A stretch of DNA of 41,714 bases from a virus, in IMG/VR virus record IMGVR_UViG_3300045051_000324, positions 1-41,714 of that record; one strand, given 5' to 3'. The translations under genes and the position numbers were made by a program. Shown piece by piece: positions 10,933 to 41,714 of this stretch. How positions within the stretch are numbered: the stretch's first letter is position 1; every line of letters starts with the position of its first letter. The notes beneath the pieces are model-generated. The model had not been told where the DNA came from. It saw only the letters and a list, made by a program, of their open reading frames with translations, and made no database searches.

Positions 10933-11652
10933 ATGGCTAGCACTGGATCAGCCGGAGCCGCCGCGGGTGCTGGCGCGGGGATGTTTGCGGGCCTCGGCCC
11001 CGCCGCGCTGCTCGCCTTTGCACCCGGTATTCTGAACGGACTCTTCGGTCTGCTCGGCGGCAATCCCCAGAAGAAACTCCAGAAGAAGATCAACCGTCTC
11101 CTGAGTCCCGAGAACCAGAAGGCGCTGACGAATCAGTTCTATCAGCAGGCCTTGGGGAGCCCGGCGTTCAGTCAGGCGCAGGGACAAATCGCGACGGGAG
11201 CGAACCAGGCCGGGTCGGATATCGCTTCGTCTCTTGCTCAGCGAGGCATCGGGACGAGTGGTACGGGGGCGATCCTGCCCGGCCTGATCAGTTCCCTGGT
11301 CGGAAGCCAGCAGGCAGGCCTGAGAACGTCAGCGTTCCAGGGTGCTCAGAACCAAGCTCAGAACACCATCCAGCAGCAGATCGCGAACCTGCAAGGCACG
11401 TCGGGGCCGAGCCAGACTCAGCAGCTGTTCGCGAGTGGTCTAGATGCCTTGGGACCGATCCTGGCCCAGTACTTCAATCAGCAGAAGACACCGCCTTCGC
11501 TGCCGAGCGATACAGATCTTCAGAACATCGCGGACTGGACGAACCTGTCCCGGAACCCGACGGGCTATCCGAGGACGCGGCCGCAGATTCAGCAGCCGAA
11601 GTATTTCCAGCAGCCAGTCCCTCAACCTCAGTACGCGGGTATGGGCCGCTAG
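10933..11652 (+). CDS. Ejection-type internal virion protein
   Basis: A 239-residue protein with a Gly/Ala-rich hydrophobic N terminus (residues 5-40, able to insert in a membrane) followed by a Gln/Ala-rich helical body and a Pro/Gln-rich tail. Small Ala-rich helical proteins in this position, after the tail genes and before two more Gln-rich proteins, are usual for DNA-ejection proteins of P22- or T7-like phages. It has a strong AAGGAGG site. No enzyme motif. Confidence 0.6.
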   Translation: MASTGSAGAAAGAGAGMFAGLGPAALLAFAPGILNGLFGLLGGNPQKKLQKKINRLLSPENQKALTNQFYQQALGSPAFSQAQGQIATGANQAGSDIASSLAQRGIGTSGTGAILPGLISSLVGSQQAGLRTSAFQGAQNQAQNTIQQQIANLQGTSGPSQTQQLFASGLDALGPILAQYFNQQKTPPSLPSDTDLQNIADWTNLSRNPTGYPRTRPQIQQPKYFQQPVPQPQYAGMGR

Positions 11653-20823: not shown

Positions 20824-21044
20824 GGCTTCTTCCGTTTGCGCGGTTTCACCGTGTTACGAGCGATCCGTTCCAGCTTCGACGGGATCGCAATGAAATTGCC
20901 GCAGTGCAGCAGCGAGTTGAGCCGTTTCAGTTCGTCACGGATGTCCATCAATACCGCCACCTGAGCGGCCTCCCAGGACTCGACCCTTCCGTCTTGTTCC
21001 GCCACCTGCCAATTCGCATCCTTCTGGCGACGGTCAGGGCTCAC
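20820..21044 (-). CDS. Small basic protein, unknown
   Basis: A 74-residue protein, GTG start, with a helical centre ('AAQVAVLMDIRDELKRLNSLL') and a highly basic C terminus ('TVKPRKRKK'), so nucleic-acid binding is possible. Overlaps both neighbours by four bases. Confidence 0.65.
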   Translation of the reverse strand: MSPDRRQKDANWQVAEQDGRVESWEAAQVAVLMDIRDELKRLNSLLHCGNFIAIPSKLERIARNTVKPRKRKKP

Positions 21045-21337
21045 TCGCTCCCCCTATCCGTTGAGGCGGCGCGGCCGACCTCGATTGCAGCTTCCAACTC
21101 CTCGTCGCAAGTCAGCGGATCGCTGATGATGTCGTGTCCGCCGCTGGTGCGTTGGCACGCGAGTTCTTCTAGCGGTGCCAGCGCGGCCTCCATCGCCTCG
21201 CGGCGGACGGCTGCGAACTCGGCAGCGAGCGACTCGACATCCATCATCGTCGTGCTCACCATTCCCGCTTGCCACGTCTGCTCGTGAACCTTCGCGGCGT
21301 TGTCCAGCCAGGCTCGCGCACGGTCAGCGTCGGTCAT
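21041..21337 (-). CDS. Small acidic helical protein, unknown
   Basis: A 98-residue Ala/Glu-rich protein. Its start sits in an AGGCCCGAATGA context shared with the gene ending at 28755; this leader is part of the dispersed repeat. First gene after a 211-base spacer, so it probably starts a transcription unit of five coupled genes. Function unknown. Confidence 0.68.
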   Translation of the reverse strand: MTDADRARAWLDNAAKVHEQTWQAGMVSTTMMDVESLAAEFAAVRREAMEAALAPLEELACQRTSGGHDIISDPLTCDEELEAAIEVGRAASTDRGSE

Positions 21338-21479
21338 TCGGGCCTGACCCGACCATCTCGGTCACCGAGCCGCCTCGGTTTGGGGTCGGCTGGGTGTGGG
21401 AGCCTTAAGGCACGACGGCCCGTCCCGGCCCCACACCAACGAAGCCCGGCGACCACCGAACGACCGGCCAGGACCGACA
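21335..21479. repeat. Dispersed early-region repeat, head-to-head pair
   Basis: Two copies diverge from a shared CTTAAG (21404-21409, within AGCCTTAAGGCAC). The plus copy has GGCCCCACACC (21428-21438) and ACCGGCCAGGACCGACA (21463-21479). The minus copy has ACCGAGGCGGCTCGGTGAC (21361-21379) and ends at the AGGCCCGAATGA start of the 21041-21337 gene. Related copies: 28176-28250, 28753-28826, 29174-29248, and partial ones at 25121-25170 and 26452-26471. The rest of this spacer (21480-21548) shows no further feature. Confidence 0.75.
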
Positions 21480-21548
21480 GCGGGGCTGCTTGATCCGGAG
21501 GTAGGGGGACCTTGCGACTTAGCCCGCCTCGCTCGACGGGTACCCCGC

Positions 21549-21983
21549 TCATTTCTTGCCCTTCTTCGCTCGCTTCACGTAAGTCCGCTTCGGCAGCTTC
21601 GCTCGGATCGCTTTGATCTCGTCTTTCATCTGCTTCTGCTTCTCTCTCAGGACAATGGCCATGATCTGATTCACCGCAGCTTCACTGAGCGTGACGGACA
21701 TATCCGAGTACCGCGCCTCGCGGTCTAGGATCAGCAGAGCGGGCTCCTGAGGCAGGCTGGGGCTCGGAGTCGTGGTCGCCCCGATTAGCTCGCGTGCGGT
21801 CAGCCTGCGAGCTTCAGGAGGCACAGGTTCGTCGTCGTCCAGGTCGACGATCGGCTCGGAGCCGGGCAAGGTCTGCAGCGGAGGGCCGGGGCCTTCGAAG
21901 CCTTCGATCACGTAGGGGTTGATCGGGTCTTTGCCGCGCTGCTTGCGGATCAGGTTGGTGACGTCTACGGATTCAGCGGTCAT
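21549..21983 (-). CDS. Unknown protein with basic C terminus
   Basis: A 144-residue protein: a Pro/acid-rich, probably disordered N-terminal half, then a helical segment ('SEAAVNQIMAIVLREKQKQ') and a very basic C terminus ('KRTYVKRAKKGKK'). The basic tail suggests contact with nucleic acid. Overlaps the upstream gene by four bases. Function unknown. Confidence 0.68.
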   Translation of the reverse strand: MTAESVDVTNLIRKQRGKDPINPYVIEGFEGPGPPLQTLPGSEPIVDLDDDEPVPPEARRLTARELIGATTTPSPSLPQEPALLILDREARYSDMSVTLSEAAVNQIMAIVLREKQKQMKDEIKAIRAKLPKRTYVKRAKKGKK

Positions 21984-22171
21984 GCCAGTTCCTTGAGCAC
22001 GGCTTCGGCTTCGGCCTTACGCTCAGCGACCATCGCGGCGCGTTCAGCCTTCAAGGTTGCGGTCTTCATCTCCGCGGCCTTGATGCGAGCGTCCAAGTCC
22101 GCGAGCTTTTCCGAGAACGGAATCTTGCCCCGACGCTTGCGCGTATAGTGATCTCTAACCGTCACATCCAT
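21980..22171 (-). CDS. Small coiled-coil protein
   Basis: A 63-residue protein: basic N terminus ('DHYTRKRRGKIP') and an Ala/Glu/Lys heptad region ('DLDARIKAAEMKTATLKAER'). It could be a partner of the preceding coiled-coil proteins. Function unknown. Confidence 0.65.
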   Translation of the reverse strand: MDVTVRDHYTRKRRGKIPFSEKLADLDARIKAAEMKTATLKAERAAMVAERKAEAEAVLKELA

Positions 22172-22479
22172 CAGCAGTTCTCTTTCTTTTCGGGATGTAC
22201 AATCACAACAGGCATCGGCTTTGGTTCAGGCTTCGTGCTTGCCCGAGCAATTTCCTCCTGAGCAACGTATCGGACTGCCCTCTCGAATTGAGAAGGCCAA
22301 AGATGCTGATAATCCAGAACATGCTTCACGCTCTTTGGTAATTCGAAACTCGAATCTCGTGTGTACAGCTCATTATCGACTTTTTTGGCTGTTTCTCTAG
22401 CACTTGACCAAGCGTTCAGCGCGATACCCAGGGCAATTCCAGCCATCAACGGTGCGGCCAGATTCGAAAGCCATTCCAT
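22171..22479 (-). CDS. Membrane-anchored protein
   Basis: A 102-residue protein. ATG 22479 is taken because TAGGAGG lies five bases upstream; the longer frame upstream is rejected. Residues 3-23 ('WLSNLAAPLMAGIALGIALNA') form one membrane segment, followed by a soluble domain with 'WPSQFERAVRYVAQEEIA' and a Pro/Lys tail. Function unknown. Shares one base with its downstream neighbour. Confidence 0.65.
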   Translation of the reverse strand: MEWLSNLAAPLMAGIALGIALNAWSSARETAKKVDNELYTRDSSFELPKSVKHVLDYQHLWPSQFERAVRYVAQEEIARASTKPEPKPMPVVIVHPEKKENC

Positions 22480-22487
22480 CAATCCTC

Positions 22488-22628
22488 CTAGTGGATTACG
22501 CCAAAGTGTTTCAGCAGCCAGAGGATTCCGAATACCAAGCCCAGCCAAAACGTGAGATTCAGGACGATTGCTCCCACAGCGAACAGAACGCCTAGAAACC
22601 CGAGTTGCTTCACAGACGGATCGCGCAT
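22488..22628 (-). CDS. 46-residue membrane protein
   Basis: ATG 22628 overlaps the nuclease stop by one base (TGATG) and follows GGGAGGA. Two hydrophobic segments ('LGFLGVLFAVGAIVLNLTFW' and 'LGLVFGILWLL') nearly touch. Holin-like size, but far from the endolysin. Function unknown. Confidence 0.6.
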   Translation of the reverse strand: MRDPSVKQLGFLGVLFAVGAIVLNLTFWLGLVFGILWLLKHFGVIH

Positions 22629-23461
22629 CAATCCTCCCGTTTCTCACACAGCCCTCGCCAGACGGTCAGGGCGGCTTGGGTGATGCTCCACAGTTCGCCT
22701 TCGGAAAGCTTCCGGTCCCACAGCTGACCGAGTTCGACGGGCTTGACCATCTCGCCCGTTAGTTGCTCAACGGACTTAGGCAGGTGGATCAGCTGGCCCC
22801 ATTTCACCGGCAGACCCATCGTCCGCGCGGCCTGGATGTAGGCCATCAGCTGCATGTGGTGGGTATCGTAGACCCATTTGCTGCTCTTGAAATCGAGAAC
22901 TCCGAGAGCGTTGTCAGAGTCCAAGGCGAACAGATCCACCGTCCCGGCATACCTGAGTTCCTGGTGCCATACGGTTTGCTCTGACCTGAGAGGAACCAGG
23001 CCTGCCTGGTCCCACCAATTCCGATAGGCCAGGTAAGCAATGCCCGACTGCGGGCTCAGCTTGGGCTCACCCAGGACTCGAGGCTGTTTGGTCAGCCCGC
23101 ACAGATCCCACTTGATCCGGTTGTGAGCCTCCGAGCCGATGTCGGCGGCTTGCTGTACGGCCTTCTGGTGCTTCCGTGCTGGCCCCAGGCGGGCTTCTAT
23201 GGCCTCTCGAGCCTCAGCACTCGCACCCGTCACGTGATGGCGGCTGAGGACGTCTAAGGCGGCTTCAATGGCGGCCTCGCGCTCGAGGCTCGCGGCCCAA
23301 TTGATCAGGGCATTGGTGCCTGTCCCCACGACCTTGAGAAAGGTTGTAACGCCGACGCAATCGCCGATTTCGGGGATTGGGTAGTACCGCTGGAACTCGT
23401 TCCCGACCTTGTGGGACTTGGGCTCGATCGGGGTGGGCCATTCGAATAGGGCGAGGGTCAT
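22628..23461 (-). CDS. PD-(D/E)XK exonuclease (Cas4/RecB family)
   Basis: A 277-residue protein with the full motif set: Gly109-x3-His113 ('GSEAH'), Glu161 before the first core strand, Asp176 in 'AGTVDLFAL' (172-180), 'DFKSSK' (190-195, Asp190 and Lys195 region) and the 'QLMAY' motif (204-208) on the following helix. This is the RecB/Cas4-type nuclease fold. In phages such enzymes resect double-stranded DNA ends for recombination or replication. No Fe-S Cys cluster is visible, so it is closer to phage exonucleases than to Cas4. An SSB-like protein is encoded nearby. Confidence 0.85.
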   Translation of the reverse strand: MTLALFEWPTPIEPKSHKVGNEFQRYYPIPEIGDCVGVTTFLKVVGTGTNALINWAASLEREAAIEAALDVLSRHHVTGASAEAREAIEARLGPARKHQKAVQQAADIGSEAHNRIKWDLCGLTKQPRVLGEPKLSPQSGIAYLAYRNWWDQAGLVPLRSEQTVWHQELRYAGTVDLFALDSDNALGVLDFKSSKWVYDTHHMQLMAYIQAARTMGLPVKWGQLIHLPKSVEQLTGEMVKPVELGQLWDRKLSEGELWSITQAALTVWRGLCEKRED

Positions 23462-23718
23462 GCGTGATCCTGCTGCTTGATCAATTCGTTGGTCTTGCGA
23501 ACCAGTTCTTTCAGTTCAAGCGTTCGCTGCCGCGCGTCGGCCCCGGAATTCCACATAAGTTCGTCGCGGCGATAATCGCGTTGGCGCTGAATCCAAACGC
23601 CTATCCCTCCAACGCAGCCACCCACCAGCATCCCAACAACCAAAAACCACCATCCATGCAATCTCGCTACAAGTTCTCCTGCGTAAAGGCAGATTAGTCC
23701 GTAAGCCATTGTTTTCAT
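23458..23718 (-). CDS. Membrane protein with cytoplasmic tail
   Basis: An 86-residue protein. ATG 23718 overlaps the upstream stop (ATGA); the longer frame is rejected. Two hydrophobic stretches ('MAYGLICLYAGELVA', 'WWFLVVGMLVGGCVGGIGVW') precede a basic, coiled C-terminal region ('LELKELVRKTNELIKQQ'). Function unknown; the outline fits a lysis or exclusion accessory protein. Confidence 0.62.
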   Translation of the reverse strand: MKTMAYGLICLYAGELVARLHGWWFLVVGMLVGGCVGGIGVWIQRQRDYRRDELMWNSGADARQRTLELKELVRKTNELIKQQDHA

Positions 23719-23933
23719 GCGGTAGCGTGACGGGTGAAGTAGTCCCACGCGGCTTCGGAAACCATCGAAGCAGCCTCCATTTCCATTTTTACTTCGATGA
23801 ACGCCTGCTTGCTCACGTCTTTCGCGATGTCGTGGAAGACGAGCTTCCAAGACGGCATCATTTCCTCGCGGTCGAGGATTTCGAGCACTCGGTTCGTGTA
23901 GTCGTCGAGTTTCTGGAGGTTATCGGTGTTCAT
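23715..23933 (-). CDS. Small helical protein, unknown
   Basis: A 72-residue acidic protein, mostly helical ('LQKLDDYTNRVLEILDREE'). No membrane segment, Cys or known motif. Four-base overlaps on both sides. Function unknown. Confidence 0.65.
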   Translation of the reverse strand: MNTDNLQKLDDYTNRVLEILDREEMMPSWKLVFHDIAKDVSKQAFIEVKMEMEAASMVSEAAWDYFTRHATA

Positions 23934-24250
23934 TTGCGGCTCACTTTCTTTTTCCTGAGTGCATCTTGAATCTTGTGTTCATCCCACCATTTGCGAAGTC
24001 TCAGGCACATCAAGTCATCGGGTCGATTGAGCAGTCGATCGCGTTCGCTTGCTGGTAGGTCAGTCATGATCTCGCACAGTTCGCGCATGGCGTGTTCGCC
24101 ACCGCCGCCGTAGATGTCTCGCGCTGCGGCCTTGAGCCAGGGATCCACGTGCATTTCGAGGCGGCTTTTGACGTAGATCAGGAGCTTGGCCGCGCGGCGG
24201 CGCTGACGTTCGCGGACGGTGGGCTCCATGTGCGAGCTATCACAAGGCAT
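23930..24250 (-). CDS. Basic helical protein with YGGGG motif
   Basis: A 106-residue basic protein with helices and 'RDIYGGGGEHAMRELC' near residue 45. The gene at 28822-29145 contains 'DDLYGGGGIDVWEFYR', suggesting that both share a small domain. The start shares one base with the stop of the upstream miniprotein (TGATG). Function unknown. Confidence 0.65.
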   Translation of the reverse strand: MPCDSSHMEPTVRERQRRRAAKLLIYVKSRLEMHVDPWLKAAARDIYGGGGEHAMRELCEIMTDLPASERDRLLNRPDDLMCLRLRKWWDEHKIQDALRKKKVSRK

Positions 24251-24360
24251 CAGCGGACCTTATCGAGCAGCGTAGCCCCGAGAGCAGCGAGGCCGGCGGC
24301 TCCGAGAACGACGAGGAGAATCGTGATCAGCAGGATACGGAACAGATCGCGGCCGAGCAT
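24250..24360 (-). CDS. 36-residue membrane miniprotein
   Basis: ATG 24360 after CTAGGAGG. 'LFRILLITILLVVLGAAGL' is one long hydrophobic helix, with charged ends. Coupled to the next gene by TGATG. The strong ribosome-binding site and exact coupling argue that it is expressed. Confidence 0.6.
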   Translation of the reverse strand: MLGRDLFRILLITILLVVLGAAGLAALGATLLDKVR

Positions 24361-24368
24361 GAGGCCTC

Positions 24369-24701
24369 CTAGAACGGGATATTCTCGTTATTGATTTCGG
24401 GCGCGTCGCCTTCGTCCATGGTGAAGACATCGAACGCTTTGAATTCGCGGCCCGAGCGAGCGTTCATCTGCTTGCCGGTGAACACGATGCGAACCAGGGT
24501 TCCATCGGGCATTCCGTCCAGCAGCATTTCGAGCGCGGTATGCAGTGGAAACGTGACATTGCCGGAAGCTGTTGAGATGGTTCCCAGTTGGCCGAACTTG
24601 CCTTCCCGCTGGCCCTGCCACAGGCCTTCGAGGCTCTGACCGGGGGTATCCCACTTGAAGAACGTTCCGCCGCCGCGTTGCACCCATTTCTTGTCGGTCA
24701 T
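24369..24701 (-). CDS. Single-stranded DNA-binding-like protein
   Basis: A 110-residue protein; ATG 24701 has GAAGGA upstream and an ATGA overlap. Strand-rich core ('SLEGLWQGQREGKFGQLGTI', 'GTLVRIVFTGKQM', 'REFKAFDVFTM') fits an OB fold. The acidic tail ends in 'NENIPF', like the 'DDIPF' tip of bacterial SSB that recruits repair and replication enzymes. It should coat single-stranded DNA during replication and recombination next to the exonuclease. The tip lacks one Asp. The OB assignment is by pattern only. Confidence 0.72.
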   Translation of the reverse strand: MTDKKWVQRGGGTFFKWDTPGQSLEGLWQGQREGKFGQLGTISTASGNVTFPLHTALEMLLDGMPDGTLVRIVFTGKQMNARSGREFKAFDVFTMDEGDAPEINNENIPF

Positions 24702-24853
24702 GGTTTTCCTTCGATTTTGGCGATTGCGGCGCGCATGGCCACAACCCAATCAGGTTCACCCCACTCCTCAACTGCTGCGACGGCAGCGACATGGTTGTAA
24801 CGCGAGAGATATTGTTTGCAGGCCTCTAGAAGATCGTCCCATGGATCATCCAC
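24698..24853 (-). CDS. 51-residue acidic protein
   Basis: GTG 24853 to TGA 24698, overlapping the SSB-like start by four bases. Sequence pattern 'LLEACKQYLSRYNHVAAVAA' then 'EEWGEPDWVVAMRAAI' is helical with aromatic residues. Missed by length filters but in frame with clear coupling. Function unknown. Confidence 0.58.
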   Translation of the reverse strand: MDDPWDDLLEACKQYLSRYNHVAAVAAVEEWGEPDWVVAMRAAIAKIEGKP

Positions 24854-24856
24854 GTG

Positions 24857-25186
24857 CTACCACCTATCGATTGGTTCATGTCTGACCGCGGGAGCCCACC
24901 GGATGGCCTCCAGGACGCGCTGTAGCCTCGTAGGACGCTTCGGAGCCCCGATCATTAGTTCGGGTACAAACTCGATCCGATCGACGGTCCAGCCGGGTCC
25001 TAGGCGTTCTGAGAGGCTTCTGGAGATCTGACCCCAACCTTGAACGGTGGCGGGGCCGGACTCGAGCACGGTGGTTCCGTGGTTGGTTCCGGTGACGATG
25101 AGGGTGCTCCCGCACGGGTTGGCCCCAGACCGAGGCGGCTCGGGGGTATCCTGACGTACGGCCAGGCCCAGCTTGGTGTCGGTCAT
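24857..25186 (-). CDS. Unknown protein; N terminus coded by the dispersed repeat
   Basis: A 109-residue protein. Residues 6-23 ('LGLAVRQDTPEPPRSGANP' region) are encoded by a partial copy of the dispersed repeat (25121-25170), on the strand opposite to the repeat's orientation. The rest has a strand-rich centre ('STLIVTGTNHGTTVLES') and a helical end. Four-base overlap upstream. Function unknown. Confidence 0.6.
   Translation of the reverse strand: MTDTKLGLAVRQDTPEPPRSGANPCGSTLIVTGTNHGTTVLESGPATVQGWGQISRSLSERLGPGWTVDRIEFVPELMIGAPKRPTRLQRVLEAIRWAPAVRHEPIDRW
25121..25170 (+). repeat. Dispersed repeat, partial copy inside a gene
   Basis: GGCCCCAGACCGAGGCGG (25121-25138) and CGGCCAGGCCCA (25159-25170) match the copy at 29174-29248 in order and nearly in spacing. 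No CTTAAG box precedes it. It lies within the start of the 24857-25186 gene. Confidence 0.6.
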
Positions 25187-25485
25187 GACTGGCCTCCGGT
25201 CTCGGCGATATTGTTTTCGATCATGAACCGGGCGCGAGCCTCGAGGCCTGCCTGCTCCCGTAGGACGGCCAGGAACGCCTCAAGGGAAGCCACGGCATCA
25301 CGCTTACGCGGGAACACAACGGGCGGGCCTTCGATGCTCCGGAAACTCCACTGCCAGTGCCGTGAGCCGCAGCGAGAAACTGGGTAGCCGTCTGAGCCAA
25401 ACATCATGACATGCGTCATGAGCGCGCGTTCGTCTTCGGTCAGCGGCCGGCGAGCCGCCTCAGCTACTGCTTCTTCTCTGGTCAC
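25183..25485 (-). CDS. Unknown early protein
   Basis: A 100-residue protein starting at GTG 25485. N-terminal helix ('EEAVAEAARRPLTEDERAL'), a central strand part ('WQWSFRSIEGPPVVFPRK') and a C-terminal helix. No known motif. Coupled downstream by a four-base overlap. Confidence 0.62.
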   Translation of the reverse strand: MTREEAVAEAARRPLTEDERALMTHVMMFGSDGYPVSRCGSRHWQWSFRSIEGPPVVFPRKRDAVASLEAFLAVLREQAGLEARARFMIENNIAETGGQS

Positions 25486-25571
25486 GTTGGCCTCTCAGTT
25501 CCGCCCGCCCCCATTGGCAGGCACTGATACCTAGAGCGGGAATCATGCCCGCCGTAAGTGATTGAATCCAT
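25482..25571 (-). CDS. Possible 29-residue protein
   Basis: ATG 25571 to TGA 25482, the stop overlapping the next GTG. 'MDSITYGGHDSRSRYQCLP' has no motif and the start lacks a clear ribosome-binding site. It is kept only because the stop is coupled to the next start. A small inverted repeat (GCGGG / CCCGC, 25536-25552) lies inside it, so this segment could instead be a leader. Confidence 0.25.
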   Translation of the reverse strand: MDSITYGGHDSRSRYQCLPMGAGGTERPT

Positions 25572-25629
25572 TAGAGCAGGGTTCAGGAGTCTGGGGCACA
25601 TCGCACGATCATTGGTGCGGAAAGCCCGG

Positions 25630-25854
25630 TCAGGCTGCCTTAGCGTCCCGCGGACGTCTACCCGTCCGTTTAACCGGAGACCAAGCCGAGCATCCTTTCC
25701 GGACCCGGTCACGCTTGCGCTCTTTCCGCTGGCATTTATCACACAGGCGCGCATACAGGTTCCGAGGGGAAGAGCAGCGAAGACAAAGACCTGCCTTCAC
25801 AAGCTCACGCTGACGCTGTATGGCCCGCTCCGAGGCCGTGCTGCGTTCATCCAT
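25630..25854 (-). CDS. Small zinc-ribbon protein
   Basis: A 74-residue basic protein with 'CLRCSS' and 'CDKCQRKERKRDR', that is two CxxC pairs about 15 residues apart, a treble-clef or ribbon type zinc site, with a Lys/Arg-rich tail. Such proteins are frequent in phage early regions and usually bind nucleic acid. The exact role is unknown. Confidence 0.66.
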   Translation of the reverse strand: MDERSTASERAIQRQRELVKAGLCLRCSSPRNLYARLCDKCQRKERKRDRVRKGCSAWSPVKRTGRRPRDAKAA

Positions 25855-25903
25855 GCAGCAAGCTTCTCACAAGAGAGAGCGGGAAAGCAAGCGGGAAATA
25901 GGG

Positions 25904-26071
25904 CTAGCCCATCATGGGTGTGCCGGGTGGCAGCAATGCCAGAATCCGGTGCGATAGCTTTTCGGATATAGCCTCAAAAAGCGCCTGTTTCTTAGCTAAT
26001 TCTGGCTCGCTCCAAAGCGCATCCGATAGTTCTGTGCCAATCTCGGATAAAAACTCAACTTCGGTCTGCAC
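25904..26071 (-). CDS. Small helical protein, unknown
   Basis: A 55-residue protein; the only plausible start is GTG 26071, which overlaps the zinc-ribbon gene by 17 bases. Acidic and helical ('FLSEIGTELSDALW', 'KKQALFEAISEKLSHRILAL'), ending in a Pro/Gly/Met tail. Function unknown. Confidence 0.5.
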   Translation of the reverse strand: MQTEVEFLSEIGTELSDALWSEPELAKKQALFEAISEKLSHRILALLPPGTPMMG

Positions 26072-26231
26072 TGGGATTCCAGTCGCGCTCGGCCTTGCTG
26101 GTGGGGAGCATTCTAACGCCAGTGATCGTGCTACAGATCGGGCACAAAGGAGCCGGGCCGGAGCAGACAATCTCAGCATTACAGCCCTTGTCGCGGTTGT
26201 GGCAGACGTACTTGATCTCTCTGGTATCCAT
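26055..26231 (-). CDS. Zinc-ribbon protein, first gene after the operator region
   Basis: A 58-residue protein; ATG 26231 follows GGAGG. Cysteines in 'YVCHNRDKGC' and 'APLCPIC' form a 4-Cys ribbon as in small phage and archaeal-type zinc proteins. It is the first minus-strand gene after the 600-base gene-free region with the paired operators and so may be controlled by them. It could be a transcription or DNA-binding factor, but that is inference. Confidence 0.62.
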   Translation of the reverse strand: MDTREIKYVCHNRDKGCNAEIVCSGPAPLCPICSTITGVRMLPTSKAERDWNPSADRS

Positions 26232-26451
26232 TGCATCCTCCGGTCTGGGGTTTCGGTTCGTGTTCATGCCTAGGACTATTGCCAGACCCATGCCGCGAGT
26301 TAAGTCGTTTGTCCTCAATGATGTGGGTGAGCTGGCCCGAGCTTCTCGCACGGTTCGCCGGGCCTTTCGCCGCGGCGGTGTGGGGCGGCCGGCGCTCGGT
26401 AGGCCTCTCCCGGTTCTGACTGGTCCCAGACCACCCACGCCCAGCCACCGA

Positions 26452-26471
26452 GATGGACCGACCAGGACCGG
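26452..26471 (+). repeat. Dispersed repeat, partial box
   Basis: GATGGACCGACCAGGACCGG matches the second box of the full copies (21463-21479; 28176-28192). There is no CTTAAG box nearby. Confidence 0.45.
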
Positions 26472-26553
26472 AGACCACACACTCCCGGGAAGGCACACAC
26501 GACAGGCCAGGCCCTCAGGCAGTACTCCAATAACCCCAGACACCAAGAACACC

Positions 26554-26569
26554 TGTACCATTCGGTACA
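26554..26569. promoter_or_regulatory. Operator palindrome 1
   Basis: TGTACC-ATTC-GGTACA, six-base arms with a four-base spacer. The right flank CACTCC is shared with operator 2. Typical of a site for a dimeric repressor or activator. Confidence 0.62.
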
Positions 26570-26582
26570 CTCCATCAGCTAG

Positions 26583-26600
26583 GTGTACCAAACGGTACAC
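26583..26600. promoter_or_regulatory. Operator palindrome 2
   Basis: GTGTACC-AAAC-GGTACAC, seven-base arms with a four-base spacer. Its centre is exactly 30 bp from that of operator 1, close to three helical turns, which places both sites on the same face of DNA and favours cooperative binding. No further copies were seen in the window. Confidence 0.65.
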
Positions 26601-26699
26601 TCCTCCCGTTACTACCGCCTCCCTGCCACCTACGGTCTCGACTGCAAAACCAGAAACCACTTTGCCCGATAAAGCAGACTGCAAGCATGGGCATGGCGT

Positions 26700-26757
26700 C
26701 ATGAGCATGCAGCCTTCAAGCTCATGCATCATGCAAGCTTAGCGTGCAGCCTGCACG
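26700..26757. repeat. CATG-rich inverted repeats, possible origin
   Basis: CATGAGC (26700-26706) pairs with GCTCATG (26720-26726), and CGTGCAG-C-CTGCACG (26743-26757) is a perfect palindrome. Six CATG occur between 26685 and 26732. Such clusters may be binding sites for the replication initiator encoded just upstream. Confidence 0.42.
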
Positions 26758-26832
26758 ACCCATGGGGGACGCCCCCTGAAAGATTCCGGGAAGTCGTGTA
26801 ATGCCTGGTCCACAAATATCTGACAGAAATTT

Positions 26833-27216
26833 CTAGGGGGCAGAGAAGGCACGGAAGCGGGCGACGGTAACTGCTGCTGAGGTAGCGGACTGCTGGATAG
26901 CTAGGGGCCAGTCAACGTGGTCGTGGAGCTTAGACCAGAAACGGAATGAGGAGCCGAGGATATCGGGGAACTTACTAGCGTGGACCATGTTACAGATTTC
27001 GGCAGGAGAGGCACCGAGTTGTCGGGCGTGGATAAGGTCTTGGACGAGCTGGTAGGCGGGGGTTCTGGATGGAGCTTTGGGGTCCCAGGAGCCGTTAGGG
27101 CGGAAGGAGCCGGGATCGGGGCCGGCCTGGACGCGGGCTTTGGAGACGCGGTTATAGGTGGTGGAGTCGGTGGAGGAGATTGGTTCTACGGCTCTTACGT
27201 CACGTTCCTTCTTCAA
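26833..27216 (-). CDS. Unknown protein after replication initiator
   Basis: A 127-residue basic protein, disordered at the N terminus, with a helical C-terminal part ('AYQLVQDLIHARQLGASPAE', 'FRFWSKLHDHVDW'). It overlaps the initiator stop by 17 bases. In many phages the partner of an initiator is a helicase loader; size and place would allow this, but no motif shows it. Confidence 0.6.
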   Translation of the reverse strand: MKKERDVRAVEPISSTDSTTYNRVSKARVQAGPDPGSFRPNGSWDPKAPSRTPAYQLVQDLIHARQLGASPAEICNMVHASKFPDILGSSFRFWSKLHDHVDWPLAIQQSATSAAVTVARFRAFSAP

Positions 27217-27943
27217 GTTCGTCCTCCCAGCGGCGGTGTTTGAGGAAGCGGTTTGGGTCGGGGATGAACTGGCGATCGGTCCAGAGGGGCAGGTAGCGAC
27301 GGAGGCCGGCCATGATATCGGTTCCTAGTTGGTCGTGGCGGCTTTTGGGGGTGGAGCGGAGGAGGCTGTGTAGTTCTTTGAGGGCCTCGGGTTTCCTGCA
27401 TTTCTTTGGGTATGCTGGCCAAAAGACGTCTTCAAACCAGATGTCTGGGCTGATGTCGTCAGCGTCAGCTGACGGAGTAACTGCGTTAGCAGTTACGATA
27501 ACTGCCTCTGCTTCTGCCTCTGCCTGTGTTGACGCGTGATGATTCTTGATGACGGATGATGACGGTCGTTGTGCTGCAAGCTTTTGGCGGCGTCGTTTCT
27601 GGGCTTCCCGTAGTTGGTGGCGTCGAAGGTCTTCGTCGATGAGGGTCCGGTAGTGGGTGTAGTTGACGATTCGCCAGCCCCAGTCGCGGTGGTCATCAAT
27701 GCGCTCGAGCCGGCAGCCGTTCTGTTCGGCGCGGCGGCTTCGGTGGTCGGGCTCTTCGAGGATCTTGAGGCCCGTTAGAACGACGGTCAGGGGAAGACCG
27801 CTGCTAGCCGAGATGGCTTCGGGGGTCTTGTCGATGAAGCCCTCCTTGTCGCAGTTAGCGAGCAGGTAGACGAAGGTGGTCCAGGCTTCCCACTGCTGAC
27901 CCAGGGTGCCATCCCACATGCTGGCGTAGATCTTGGCGTACAC
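27200..27943 (-). CDS. Replication initiator-like winged-helix protein
   Basis: A 247-residue protein, GTG start with AGGGAGGG upstream. Residues 1-60 ('YASMWDGTLGQQWEAWTTFV') and the segment 'GFIDKTPEAISASSGLPLTV' are the helix-turn-helix part of phage replisome organisers (DnaD/O-like). A linker rich in Ala, Glu and Arg follows. The C-terminal domain 'FWPAYPKKCRKPEALKEL' ... 'NRFLKHRRWEDEL' is the common end of these proteins. It should bind the origin and recruit host replication proteins. The nearby origin-like region supports this. No polymerase is encoded, so host enzymes are probably used. Confidence 0.75.
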   Translation of the reverse strand: MYAKIYASMWDGTLGQQWEAWTTFVYLLANCDKEGFIDKTPEAISASSGLPLTVVLTGLKILEEPDHRSRRAEQNGCRLERIDDHRDWGWRIVNYTHYRTLIDEDLRRHQLREAQKRRRQKLAAQRPSSSVIKNHHASTQAEAEAEAVIVTANAVTPSADADDISPDIWFEDVFWPAYPKKCRKPEALKELHSLLRSTPKSRHDQLGTDIMAGLRRYLPLWTDRQFIPDPNRFLKHRRWEDELEEGT

Positions 27944-27973
27944 GTAGCCCTCCCTGGCTAGATTTTGGTCAGT

Positions 27974-28150
27974 TCACGGTTTCTTAGGCCAGCCGATCCA
28001 TACGCCGATGACGCATGATCCGGCGACCATGCCGAAGTAGGTTCTGAGCAGCCATTGGGAGCCATCGGGGCTGTACCAGAGGGCCAGCGATAGGGTGATG
28101 ATCGCCAGTACGGCCTGGATCATCACCAGGATTCTTGCGACCCAGTTCAC
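27974..28150 (-). CDS. 58-residue membrane protein
   Basis: GTG 28150 to TGA 27974. Two hydrophobic segments: 'ILVMIQAVLAIITLSLALW' (7-25) and 'FGMVAGSCVIGVWIGW'. The ribosome-binding site is weak, so the start is uncertain. It lies just downstream of a dispersed repeat copy. Function unknown. Confidence 0.55.
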   Translation of the reverse strand: MNWVARILVMIQAVLAIITLSLALWYSPDGSQWLLRTYFGMVAGSCVIGVWIGWPKKP

Positions 28151-28175
28151 GGCTTCCAGTCGTCTGGCGGGAGGG

Positions 28176-28250
28176 TGTCGGTCCTGGCCGGTTGTGGGTC
28201 GGTCACCGGTCCTCCTCGGTCTGGGGCCTGATGGGTGGTCGTGCCTTAAG
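28176..28250 (-). repeat. Dispersed early-region repeat
   Basis: Minus orientation: CTTAAG (28245-28250), GGCCCCAGACCGAGGAGG in the middle and ACCGGCCAGGACCGACA (28176-28192). Matches the plus copy at 21404-21479 box for box. It fills the spacer upstream of the 27974-28150 gene. The adjacent 13-mer ATCATCTCGCCCT (28259-28271) equals the 3' arm of the 29.3-kb leader helix. Confidence 0.75.
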
Positions 28251-28259
28251 CCCGGCCCA

Positions 28260-28436
28260 TCATCTCGCCCTCGCGGCTTTCAGGAACTCAGCCAGTTGGA
28301 TCAGGTCTTCGGTCTTGACCTTGATCTGTGTGTGGTCTTCGGTGCTGTAGAGCCAGGCTCCCTGGTCTTCGGTTTCCGTCAGCTGAAGGCTTCCGGCTTT
28401 GGTGACGTAGGTTTTGGTGTGGCGTTCTTCTCTCAT
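28260..28436 (-). CDS. Small early protein, unknown
   Basis: A 58-residue protein; ATG 28436 in the context GAGGCCCGCATGA, so the shared AGG box probably serves as ribosome-binding site. A TTG 18 bases upstream is less likely. Strand-helix pattern 'TYVTKAGSLQLTETEDQG' and a C-terminal helix 'DLIQLAEFLKAARAR'. Function unknown. Confidence 0.6.
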   Translation of the reverse strand: MREERHTKTYVTKAGSLQLTETEDQGAWLYSTEDHTQIKVKTEDLIQLAEFLKAARAR

Positions 28437-28443
28437 GCGGGCC

Positions 28444-28755
28444 TCATTCTCCAAAAGTGTCGTGGTCGAGTTCGCCGCTCAGCAGACAGAACAGGCTGAT
28501 CATGAACGCCAGTAAGCCGATGAACCCGAACGCCGCGAGCACACCGAAGGCAGGGAACAGCGCAATCTTGAGCCATAACGGCACGGCCGCGAAGAATGCC
28601 CAGATCGCCTGGTTGTACTGGATGACGAGGCCGTCTGCTGCGGAGATCAGAAATCCCATGACTAGGTCACGGGTCCGAATGAACGATGGATAGCCAGCCA
28701 TCGGCATCCAGCTGGCACGGATGGCTTCGATTTCTCCGGGATCTCTAAGATTCAT
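28444..28755 (-). CDS. Membrane protein, unknown
   Basis: A 103-residue protein with hydrophobic segments near residues 31-60 ('VIQYNQAIWAFFAAVPLWL') and 64-93 ('ALFPAFGVLAAFGFIGLLAF') and an acidic tail. Its start lies in the shared AGGCCCGAATGA context. Membrane proteins among the first early genes often block superinfection or alter the host envelope; this is inference. Confidence 0.62.
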   Translation of the reverse strand: MNLRDPGEIEAIRASWMPMAGYPSFIRTRDLVMGFLISAADGLVIQYNQAIWAFFAAVPLWLKIALFPAFGVLAAFGFIGLLAFMISLFCLLSGELDHDTFGE

Positions 28756-28826
28756 TCGGGCCTCGCGGTGCGTGGGAGGTGGATCGGCCTGGCAGCTTAG
28801 GGGCGGATCGGTGGTGGTGCCTTAAG
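28753..28826 (-). repeat. Dispersed repeat, partial copy
   Basis: Minus orientation from CTTAAG (28821-28826), which holds the TAA stop of the 28822-29145 gene. CTTAAGGCACCACCACC is identical to the sequence leading into that gene from 29179. A weak second box GCCAGGCCGATC lies at 28782-28793, and the unit ends at the AGGCCCGAATGA start (28753-28763). Confidence 0.6.
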
Positions 28827-29145
28827 CCTCGGCGTGTTCAATTAATTTGGCGAGACGCAGCCACGCGCGACCGACGGCGCGGTAGAACTCCCAGACATCG
28901 ATTCCGCCACCGCCGTATAGGTCATCGATGATCGTTGGGCCTCTAACTGGAACGCGCTCCTCGATCACGTAGATCGGCCCGCCGCGGCCTTTCGCGGTGA
29001 TGCCTGACTTCAGAGTCACGTAGAAAAAGCGGTGGTCGTATTTGCGCCAGTCAGCGAGCATGGTCGTCCCGCCTTCTCGCCAGCCACCGCCCGCCTCCAA
29101 CCACCAGGCCGAGCCATTCCATCTCCCTTCGGGTCCTTCCAGCAT
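28822..29145 (-). CDS. First gene of the minus block, unknown
   Basis: A 107-residue protein. Trp/Gly-rich N terminus, strand-rich centre ('FFYVTLKSGITAKGRGGPIY') and 'DDLYGGGGIDVWEFYRAV' near residue 75, like the motif in the gene at 23930-24250. GGAGGATTC precedes the ATG. As the first gene it may be an early host-takeover protein, but the sequence does not show a function. Confidence 0.65.
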   Translation of the reverse strand: MLEGPEGRWNGSAWWLEAGGGWREGGTTMLADWRKYDHRFFYVTLKSGITAKGRGGPIYVIEERVPVRGPTIIDDLYGGGGIDVWEFYRAVGRAWLRLAKLIEHAEA

Positions 29146-29173
29146 GAATCCTCCGACGGTGGGGTGGTGGTGC

Positions 29174-29248
29174 CTTAAGCCCCGGTGACCCAGCCCGGCC
29201 CCACACCGAGGCGGTCTGGTGACTTTGGTGGACCGGCCAGGCCCAACA
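29174..29248 (+). repeat. Dispersed early-region repeat in the divergent spacer
   Basis: Plus orientation: CTTAAG (29174-29179), CCCGGCCCCACACCGAGGCGG region, then GACCGGCCAGGCCCAACA. It lies between the first minus-strand gene and the plus-strand promoter candidate. Confidence 0.72.
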
Positions 29249-29249
29249 G

Positions 29250-29271
29250 TTTCCCGCTTGCTTTCGGGAAA
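29250..29271. promoter_or_regulatory. Inverted repeat upstream of promoter
   Basis: TTTCCCG (29250-29256) and CGGGAAA (29265-29271) with an eight-base spacer. Placed 20 bases upstream of the extended -10 candidate, where a repressor or activator would bind. It might also form a terminator-like hairpin. Confidence 0.5.
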
Positions 29272-29291: not shown

Positions 29292-29300
29292 TGCTAGAAT
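29292..29300 (+). promoter_or_regulatory. Extended -10 promoter candidate for the plus block
   Basis: TGCTAGAAT: TAGAAT at 29295-29300 preceded by TGC, an extended -10 element. The -35 region (GTCAAC, 29272-29277) is poor, as is usual with extended -10 promoters. Transcription would begin around 29306 and run through the structured leader. Confidence 0.5.
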
Positions 29301-30303: not shown

Positions 30304-30513
30304 GTGCCCGTCAACCAAAAGCCACAGGCGATCCACGATCAAGATCAGGCGATCTGGGTCTTGCGCGAGGCTGCTGGTGAGGCGTTTGATTTCATCGAGT
30401 GCTACTGCAACTGCACGGCTAGGGGTCAGGTGGCGAAGCGGCTGCGCTACGCGCTCACGATGACCGAAGCGTTTGCTCCCGCCGTGGACAGACGACGAAA
30501 GGCCGAACGATGA
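30304..30513 (+). CDS. Small helical protein, unknown
   Basis: A 69-residue protein, GTG start one base after the previous stop. 'DQAIWVLREAAGEAFDFIEC' and 'RGQVAKRLRYALTMTEAF' are helical. Two Cys ('CYCNC'). Overlaps the methyltransferase by four bases. Function unknown. Confidence 0.6.
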   Translation: MPVNQKPQAIHDQDQAIWVLREAAGEAFDFIECYCNCTARGQVAKRLRYALTMTEAFAPAVDRRRKAER

Positions 30514-31103
30514 CGCCGTCCAATCCATCCAGCAATCCAGCGGTCTTCTACTCTCACGCCGCCGAGGACGAATGGATCCTCAGCCAGTTCCCCGAGGGCT
30601 TTCAGGGCTATGCCGTCGAACTCGGTGCTCACGACGGCCGGTACATCAGCAATACGTTTCTGCTCGAAGAGAAGGGCTGGACCGTGCTGTGCATCGAGCC
30701 CAATCCTCATCACGAGGCCGAGCTTCGCAAGAACCGCAAACTCGTTTTGACCTGTGCTTGCAACGAGACGCCCAGCGAAGACGCCACGCTGTACATTCAC
30801 TCTGTCCACAACGACACGCAGACGAGTTTGGTGAATACCAGTTCGGACCAGGCGAAGGTGGTCGTGAGAACGCTAGCCGATTGCATCGACAAGGCCGGCT
30901 TTCCAAGGCTGGATGTGATCTCGCTCGACGTGGACGGTCTCGAACTAGAGATCCTCAAGGGAGCCGATCTGCCACGGTGGCATCCCAAGGTGATCGTTGT
31001 TGAAAACAACCAAGGCGAGGCGCTGACTCAGTTCGTGGCGAACTCCGGCTACACGTACATCGAGATGCGTGGGCACAACCAGTTGTGGCTTGCTAATCCG
31101 TGA
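30510..31103 (+). CDS. FkbM-family methyltransferase
   Basis: A 197-residue protein with SAM-binding motif 'VELGAHDGRYISNTFLLEE' near residue 36, motif 'WTVLCIEPNP' near 57, and the FkbM-type 'VISLDVDGLELEILKGAD' near 140. These enzymes methylate oxygen atoms, typically on sugars or polyketides. It heads the glycan cluster. A paralogue lies directly downstream and shares 'QFPEGFQGYA' and 'GWTVLCIEPNP'. Confidence 0.85.
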   Translation: MTPSNPSSNPAVFYSHAAEDEWILSQFPEGFQGYAVELGAHDGRYISNTFLLEEKGWTVLCIEPNPHHEAELRKNRKLVLTCACNETPSEDATLYIHSVHNDTQTSLVNTSSDQAKVVVRTLADCIDKAGFPRLDVISLDVDGLELEILKGADLPRWHPKVIVVENNQGEALTQFVANSGYTYIEMRGHNQLWLANP

Positions 31104-31900
31104 GCAAGATCATCGTTGCCTTGGTCGGCGGTCCGATGGATCACCAGATGTACGCCATCGGCGAGACCGAGGATCCGCGGCTTCAACTCAAGACCCACGA
31201 CCTCGATGAGAAGACCTACGTGATGGCCGTCTACAACCGAGGCGGTGTCGGAAGCGACGGCATCCAGGAGTACGTTTATTCTGGCGATATCGAGGTCAAG
31301 CACGGAAGCCTCTCCGGCATCGGATGCGAGGACCTGTGGCTGCTCGGTCAGTTTCCTGAAGGCTTTCAAGGTTACGCCGCTGACGTTGGAGCCTACGACG
31401 GAGTCTCGACCAGCAACACGCTTCTGCTGGAACGTGAAGGCTGGACGGTCCTGTGTATCGAGCCCAACCCGTGGCTGGAATCGGCGCTCAAGCACCGGAA
31501 GCTTGCCGAAATCTGCGCCTGCGGGTCTGTTGAGCAGGAGTCCGCGGATTTCCACGTTCACTGTGTCGCTCCTGGCGCGTTCTCGGCCCTGAATCCGATC
31601 AAGGACAATCCGACCTGGCACCCGAGAACCGATGCCGCCTGGGATGTCATCAAGGTTCCCATCAGACGCTTGGAAACGCTCCTGAGAGCCCACCAGTTCC
31701 CGAGGCTGGACGTCTTGAGCGTGGACGTTGAGGGAGCCGAGATCGACGTTCTGGAGGGCTTGGATCTCCAGGAATGGGGCGTCCAGGCGATCGTCGGAGA
31801 AGACTGGGACGATCCGGGCACCCTCACGCCGTATCTGGCAGGACGAGGGTATCGGTTAGTCGAGCGCCGCGAACCGAACAATCTCTACCTGCGTGTCTAA
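31100..31900 (+). CDS. FkbM-family methyltransferase fused to a small phage domain
   Basis: A 266-residue protein, GTG start. Residues 1-70 ('VALVGGPMDHQMYAIGE', ending 'QEYVYSG') look like a small stand-alone phage protein. Residues 75-266 repeat the FkbM domain of the preceding gene: 'ADVGAYDGVSTSNTLLLE' SAM motif, 'CIEPNPW', 'LSVDVEGAEIDVLEG'. The pair arose by tandem duplication. Probably O-methylates a sugar made or added by the glycosyltransferases downstream. Confidence 0.85.
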   Translation: MSKIIVALVGGPMDHQMYAIGETEDPRLQLKTHDLDEKTYVMAVYNRGGVGSDGIQEYVYSGDIEVKHGSLSGIGCEDLWLLGQFPEGFQGYAADVGAYDGVSTSNTLLLEREGWTVLCIEPNPWLESALKHRKLAEICACGSVEQESADFHVHCVAPGAFSALNPIKDNPTWHPRTDAAWDVIKVPIRRLETLLRAHQFPRLDVLSVDVEGAEIDVLEGLDLQEWGVQAIVGEDWDDPGTLTPYLAGRGYRLVERREPNNLYLRV

Positions 31901-41235: not shown

Positions 41236-41714
41236 ATGGAAGACACGAACGTCAGCCCGGCGCAACCGCAGCCCAACGCTGACCAGCGTCTCGCGGAACT
41301 CGAACAGCGGTATGCCGCCTCCAGCGCAGAAGGCAAGCGGCTGGCTCAGGAAGTCCAAAAGTGGCAGGCCTACGCCCAGCAGGTGGAGCAGCAGGTGCAG
41401 CAGTCTCAACAGGGACAGCGAACCGCCTCTGACAAGCTGGCCGAGTTTGGTTTCCCGGTCCCGGACCTCGAGGAGTTCGTCTCTTCGCGGGTCGCGCAAG
41501 CCGTGGACGACCGGCTTCGGCCGCTCTCCCAACTCGGAACGGCCAGAGCAGAACTGATGGCCAAGTATGGCGAGGACTACCAGAAGTTCGAGCCCGAGGT
41601 GTTCAAGTTCGTGAACTCCGATCCGGCATTGAATCAACGGTTCAATCAGATGCTCAAAGCGGACGCCGGTGCGGCGAACGAATGGGCATACCTCACTTAC
41701 GCAGACCAGCAGCG
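41236..41714 (+). CDS. Scaffold-like protein, N-terminal part (runs off contig end)
   Basis: ATG 41236 after AGAGGA. Coiled-coil region rich in Gln and Glu ('EVQKWQAYAQQVEQQVQQSQ', residues 40-59) and a charged remainder that continues as bases 3-500. Joined, the protein is about 234 residues. A small acidic coiled-coil protein between portal and capsid genes is typical of scaffolding proteins. Confidence 0.75.
   Translation, partial: MEDTNVSPAQPQPNADQRLAELEQRYAASSAEGKRLAQEVQKWQAYAQQVEQQVQQSQQGQRTASDKLAEFGFPVPDLEEFVSSRVAQAVDDRLRPLSQLGTARAELMAKYGEDYQKFEPEVFKFVNSDPALNQRFNQMLKADAGAANEWAYLTYADQQ
41441..41714. repeat. Contig-end direct repeat, right copy
   Basis: Right copy of the repeat at 1-274, with silent differences at 41568, 41622, 41628, 41637, 41670 and 41712. 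Confidence 0.93.

Follow-up and report, generated by a model that had tools for sequence, protein, structure and literature searches.

CTTAAG-hinged repeats in the early-region spacers of an uncultured phage: possible control sites, one of them fused to a truncated gene

Phage early regions are patchworks of short genes of unknown function, and it is an open question by what means their modules are exchanged without expression control being lost. What, then, is to be made of a sequence that recurs in the early-region spacers of a single phage, each time as a CTTAAG followed by two GC boxes? The original prediction offered early promoter or operator sets, RNA leaders, recombination joints between gene modules, or a small mobile element. 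If a control site is repeated at a proven gene-loss joint, one genome could serve to test regulatory sequence as a substrate of module exchange.

The window analysed here is the whole of IMG/VR virus record IMGVR_UViG_3300045051_000324, 41,714 bases from an uncultured phage. A 274-base direct repeat lies at both ends (1-274 and 41441-41714), and since its identity is only 98%, the record ends may derive from population variants. The plus strand carries T7-like portal/adaptor, terminase and head genes, while a leftward block holds small genes including an exonuclease and a replication initiator; no integrase, repressor or RNA polymerase was recognised in the window. The terminase has relatives in IMG/VR at 41-59% identity, and GenBank phages match at only about 25%. 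A terminase-profile search of bacterial genomes, run for host identification, found no relative, and searches through the exonuclease, the first early gene and the major head protein found no close one; the claims made below are limited to that extent, as they concern a single phage standing by itself. At 30510-31900, two neighbouring genes have a common stretch of 144 nt at 72-74% identity; both match the same genes in related phages and look like a tandem duplication.

A repeat family of the early-region spacers

The CTTAAG family is real, and the sequence and coordinates of the original prediction are confirmed: CTTAAG and the two boxes recur in the order described at the sites it named, with every box present, and profile and self-BLAST agree. 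The best self-BLAST pair of the window is 21404-21479 against 28250-28176 (79% over 76 nt, E 2.5e-10), followed by 21340-21416 against 29244-29167 (74%, E 5e-6) and 21358-21409 against 28199-28250 (79%, E 7e-5). A profile built from five units finds in the window five full-length copies of about 75 nt each and two decayed fragments (Table 1), and nothing else convincing. When each copy was left out in turn and then searched for, four of the five were recovered, and just the first 30 nt of the fifth, D-. Compared with shuffles, the first box has 5 matches where 0.21 are expected, the second 4 against 0.28 and the core 5 against 0.41; CTTAAG by itself shows no enrichment, with 5 matches against 3.1. 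Conserved columns are clustered along the unit (p 0.02 with CTTAAG, 0.06 without it), and the homology spans 75 nt, far beyond a single protein site, and so implies duplication. The unit columns are admittedly GC-rich and biased, with large bias terms in the profile search, as chance similarity among GC-rich spacers would have it; but with left-out copies recovered at E values down to 2e-11, and with most of 21 GC-matched relatives lacking such a family, that explanation is vanishingly improbable and is counted as already refuted.

All copies lie at 21.3-29.3 kb, and the profile finds none among the virion genes, instead of the random scatter or virion-block copies that the original prediction had named as evidence against itself. 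Some of its details shift. The stretch 28826-28753, called partial, is in fact a full-length, diverged copy; the partial copy at 25121-25170 reappears as a decayed fragment, and the one at 26452-26471 is part of a longer, weak fragment. Its placing of every copy in the minus-strand block holds for most, the exception being C+, which lies in a divergent spacer and points toward the plus block. The AGGCCCG(A/C)ATG ending that it described is seen in two units (A- and D-), and once more at 28436, where there is no unit.

Table 1. Copies of the repeat and associated features in the window
Feature	Position	Strand	Profile search	Remarks
Unit A- (arm2 of locus A)	21335..21409	-	62.8 bits; left-out E 2.1e-10	head CTTAAG at 21409; other end at ATG of gene 21041-21337
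Unit A+ (arm1 of locus A)	21404..21480	+	51.0 bits; left-out E 5.3e-7	head-to-head with A-; CTTAAG 21404-21409 common to both
Fragment E, arm2-like, decayed, without CTTAAG	25120..25170	+	E 7e-5 to 4e-3	antisense, within first codons of gene 24857-25186
Fragment F, decayed, weak	26420..26470	+	jackknife E 2e-3 to 3; missed in 1/5 runs	in 601-nt spacer
Relic gene tail TLPPDDWKP*	28150..28176	-		joined to unit B; overlaps next start codon (GTGA)
Unit B- (core + arm1)	28176..28250	-	58.0 bits; left-out E 1.9e-11	GAGGAGG and GTG opening a 19-codon leader ORF; 3' end fused to gene tail
Unit D- (core + decayed arm1)	28753..28826	-	44.1 bits; left-out E 0.15 (core only)	occupies entire spacer; end abuts ATG at 28755; TAA stop (28824-28822) of upstream gene in its CTTAAG
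Locus C core, half arm1	29156..29179	-	E 1.4	exact core match 29163-29179; 95.7% over 23 nt vs 28810-28832; 17 nt before SD/ATG region of gene 28822-29145
Unit C+ (arm2 of locus C)	29174..29249	+	60.4 bits; left-out E 4.7e-10	
TGCTAGAAT, candidate plus-block promoter	29292..29300	+		extended -10 (TGNTANAAT)

Once every locus is oriented by its core, the unit reads as one half of an imperfect palindrome of about 146 bp hinged on CTTAAG. The arms are less well conserved than the 17-nt core, CTTAAGGCACSACSACC, which is polar (CCYCGG-CTTAAG-GCACSACSACC), its direction being leftward at loci B, C and D but rightward at A. Only locus A (21335-21480) is complete, with both arms, its left side resembling the C arm and its right side the B arm. 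Locus C retains the core and the left arm, the right arm being present over 18 nt, and loci B and D consist of the core and the right arm. By pairwise identity, A- is nearest to C+ (0.72), and D is nearest to B and A+ (0.64 and 0.63) and most distant from C+ (0.52). Across B, C and D the core is 92-95% identical, whereas the decayed D arm retains only about half identity, and C departs from the arm after the core; the breakpoints of all three lie near the palindrome centre. Dyad symmetry is modest, with p 0.008 at A over 24 nt, and is not significant at B, C or D.

Gene calls were made with a simple codon-usage caller written for this analysis. By these calls the five full units are 89-100% non-coding, in a window of which 8% is non-coding, and C+ sits in the 274-nt spacer that divides the leftward from the rightward block, the only spacer between divergent blocks. 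Lying 43 nt past it, TGCTAGAAT is the sole perfect extended -10 of the window; as the plus-block promoter it is suggestive only, because 0.82 such matches are expected by chance window-wide. Between the two, at 29250-29271, is a perfect inverted repeat, TTTCCCG-N8-CGGGAAA, operator- or attenuator-like in appearance. No sigma-70 promoter or terminator was found in any unit; the host's promoter type may differ from sigma-70. Other candidates were tried and rejected: the AT-rich hexamer, judged by eye as a -10, sigma-54 or heat-shock -35 element, fails on spacing or partner boxes, a phage RNA polymerase promoter finds no RNA polymerase recognised among the larger proteins, and the coding score is negative for the 72-aa ORF that runs through locus A and has an ATGA overlap at each end.

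A truncated gene joined to unit B

At one locus the repeat meets the remains of a gene. The nine codons of the relic tail are in frame with the leader ORF of unit B, and they match the end of a small early gene family of which at least five relatives (G004, G008, G010, G013 and G021) carry intact members, about 70-95 aa long, centred on DECIRQMEWAR and ending in TLAPEDWKP*. When a profile of this family was run through all frames of 22 contigs, the window tail ranked right after the true members (E 0.028; next best 1.4), and this stretch is the only match to the family in the window. An ungapped 55-nt alignment with each of the five relatives gives 30-35 identities where 14-15 are expected (p 0 to 1e-4 each), p values that are not independent since the relatives are mutually homologous; in G008 the downstream start, ATGAACTGGG, matches as well.

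The gene body is absent from the window, and unit B occupies its place, ending exactly where TLPPDDWKP* begins. Since the gene whose tail it is fused to remains intact in relatives, B marks a demonstrable recombination joint at one locus: it evidently replaced most of a gene. The recombination-joint role put forward in the original prediction thereby gains direct support, and through this copy the family may also mark joints of gene-module exchange. In G010 the DWKP-tail gene stands directly after the counterpart of the gene that precedes locus A, an order that hints at a second replacement event. The gene family itself (loci L051-L067) is found at varied positions, with two copies in G013 and two in G021, and its tail often encodes the Shine-Dalgarno sequence of the next gene.

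Control site, relic or mobile element

The reading tentatively favoured here, which we would put somewhat short of an even chance, is that of a duplicated cis-acting control site of early genes, an operator or regulated start region doubling as a module joint. The repeats would be copies of one DNA control element of the early region, with a core bound by a protein, perhaps a phage or host regulator, that would control initiation at the divergent spacer (C) and at the internal starts D, B and A of a leftward early operon. The copies would have arisen through duplication of a C/A-type element within the early region, locus A or C being probably nearest to the ancestral form, and the sequence shared among them would offer homologous joints for the swap or loss of gene modules. 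In three of them the arm would add a ribosome-binding site and a GTG, able to couple translation to the next gene. A role at the DNA level is argued from the mixed orientations and from single units without a fold. The promoter or operator role of the original prediction is made plausible by location, palindromic hinge, better-kept core and absence from virion genes, and weakened by a unit holding no promoter consensus. Locus C, in the sole divergent spacer and beside the only perfect extended -10, speaks for a control element; against it count the polarity of locus A, opposite to that of the surrounding genes, and the early proteins, among which no repressor or DNA-binding protein was recognised. 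If the control-site reading is right, the 17-nt core would be a sequence handle toward finding the regulator.

The strongest rival, unlikely on balance in our view, holds that the copies are pure recombination relics of duplication, deletion and module exchange, with no regulation, CTTAAG being just the breakpoint of a palindrome. Much of the anatomy agrees with it: B stands for the body of the DWKP-tail gene while retaining its last codons and the next start, the gene upstream of D takes its stop codon from that unit, the breaks in B, C and D are all central, and fragment E lies within coding sequence. The main counter-argument, resting on 3-4 copies, is that the core has stayed nearly identical while the rest of D decays; moreover, the copies occupy gene heads and the divergent spacer, not random module borders. 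To a mixed version, in which the CTTAAG palindrome would be both a bidirectional operator and a dedicated early-module recombination joint, cut or recombined centrally to give half elements of fixed polarity, we attach a low probability. Could the unit act instead through RNA, as a translation-start cassette that equips the next gene with a Shine-Dalgarno sequence and a short, coupled leader ORF? The arms of A-, B- and C+ do carry a Shine-Dalgarno-like GAGGMGG and then GTGAC, with leader ORFs of 13, 19 and 38 codons, the ORF overlapping the start codon of the next gene in A- and B-. Yet GTG is lacking in D-, A+ and E, while A+, E and F are antisense to genes, and single units fold no better than shuffles (z -1.3 to +0.9; no signal in the five units and their consensus), so that such a cassette appears very doubtful. 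An RNA element was ruled out on this absent fold signal together with an Rfam search that gave no family match; with single units that do not fold and copies in both orientations, the RNA leader first suggested finds no support as a general role, although GAGGMGG and GTG are present in three copies.

Mobility has to be weighed against the search for copies elsewhere. Profile search of 21 related contigs found no unit, DNA search of 30 related records gave matches that were all coding and confined to the gene next to unit B, and BLAST against GenBank phages and plasmids gave chance matches only. Exact-pattern scans of IMG/VR and of GTDB genomes found no copy, a kind of scan that diverged copies could escape. 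A host repeat was rejected, the core being absent from GTDB genomes as an exact pattern, as was a trait general to the phage group, most relatives having no such intergenic family at all. With no second genome carrying the family, conservation under selection is inseparable from recent duplication. A non-autonomous, MITE-like foldback element, intact at locus A and decayed in its other insertions, would account for the 146-nt inverted repeat, whose two arms fold as a single strand with z -2.9, and for the occurrence of both orientations. However, the terminal inverted repeats of such elements are present at locus A only, in the one complete copy, and neither multiple intact copies nor the copies in other genomes were found in the searches just described; the protein scan brought up no transposase. 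Locus A is flanked by a possible 5-bp CAGCG repeat, but it overlaps unit sequence (GACA is common to A+, B and C+) and is thus not a clean target-site duplication. The small mobile element of the original prediction, with its single complete palindrome, no convincing target-site duplication and no copies elsewhere, is therefore a weak proposal, and we hold it improbable.

Known systems and neighbouring repeats

In cluster K mycobacteriophages, ESAS take the form of imperfect inverted repeats placed where genes of the non-structural half start (PMC3203893), and they enclose SigA-like promoters (PMC11373665). The repeats described here resemble SAS/ESAS in being phage-private, restricted to non-structural genes and spacers, placed at gene starts and built on a long imperfect inverted repeat (PMC3203893, PMC11373665); upstream-gene stop codons may fall inside the site, and the variation of the SAS/ESAS consensus among related phages is counted as a further likeness. 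They differ in build: whereas ESAS have arms of 15-17 bp, a short spacer, a SigA-like promoter inside and a 13-bp SAS alongside, the arms here are about 70 bp without a spacer, in both orientations and mostly as half elements. No common 13-mer of the GGGATAGGAGCCC type was found 3-9 bp before starts in the start contexts, nor an inverted repeat of 15-17 bp with a SigA-like promoter, the sole inverted repeat being the arm pair of about 75 nt at locus A.

PeSLs, which join an early promoter with a stem-loop terminator, are reportedly mobile regulatory cassettes of T4-like phages, as Arbiol 2010 and Comeau 2014 are said to have described. In the citing passage of PMC4503421 they appear as promoter/stem-loop cassettes associated with module shuffling. 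The likeness lies in repeated intergenic cassettes, plastic early regions and joints for module shuffling, the marking of a swapped module being seen at one locus, unit B with its DWKP tail; the difference lies in a unit in which neither early promoter nor stem-loop terminator was found, though the host's promoters may be of another type. By analogy, the family may be seen as a mixture of ESAS and PeSL in its location and its joint, and it is assigned to neither class because promoter, SAS and stem-loop all fail.

No attC boxes (RYYYAAC ... GTTRRRY) were seen by eye in the unit sequences. In the relative G015 (L076), a 20-nt start-associated repeat, AACCTAGGGGGAACACNRTG, occurs in three copies, at 11575, 12502 and 14113; it too is a spacer motif repeated before early minus genes, but it is shorter (about 20 nt), contains the Shine-Dalgarno sequence, keeps a single orientation and is unrelated in sequence. 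Contig G022 (L083/L084) holds four attC-like repeats at 22308-24241 (TAACGCTTGAGCTAAGCGGC...GAATAGTTATG); although the contig is classified as viral, they suggest an array of integron cassettes. Within the window, the large spacer near the replication initiator contains two copies of TGTACCNNNNGGTACACTCC at 26554-26603, 30 nt apart, each a perfect dyad of operator- or origin-like character, and at 26685-26765 in the same spacer GCATG-type words and short repeats are clustered, possibly as iterons of a replication origin.
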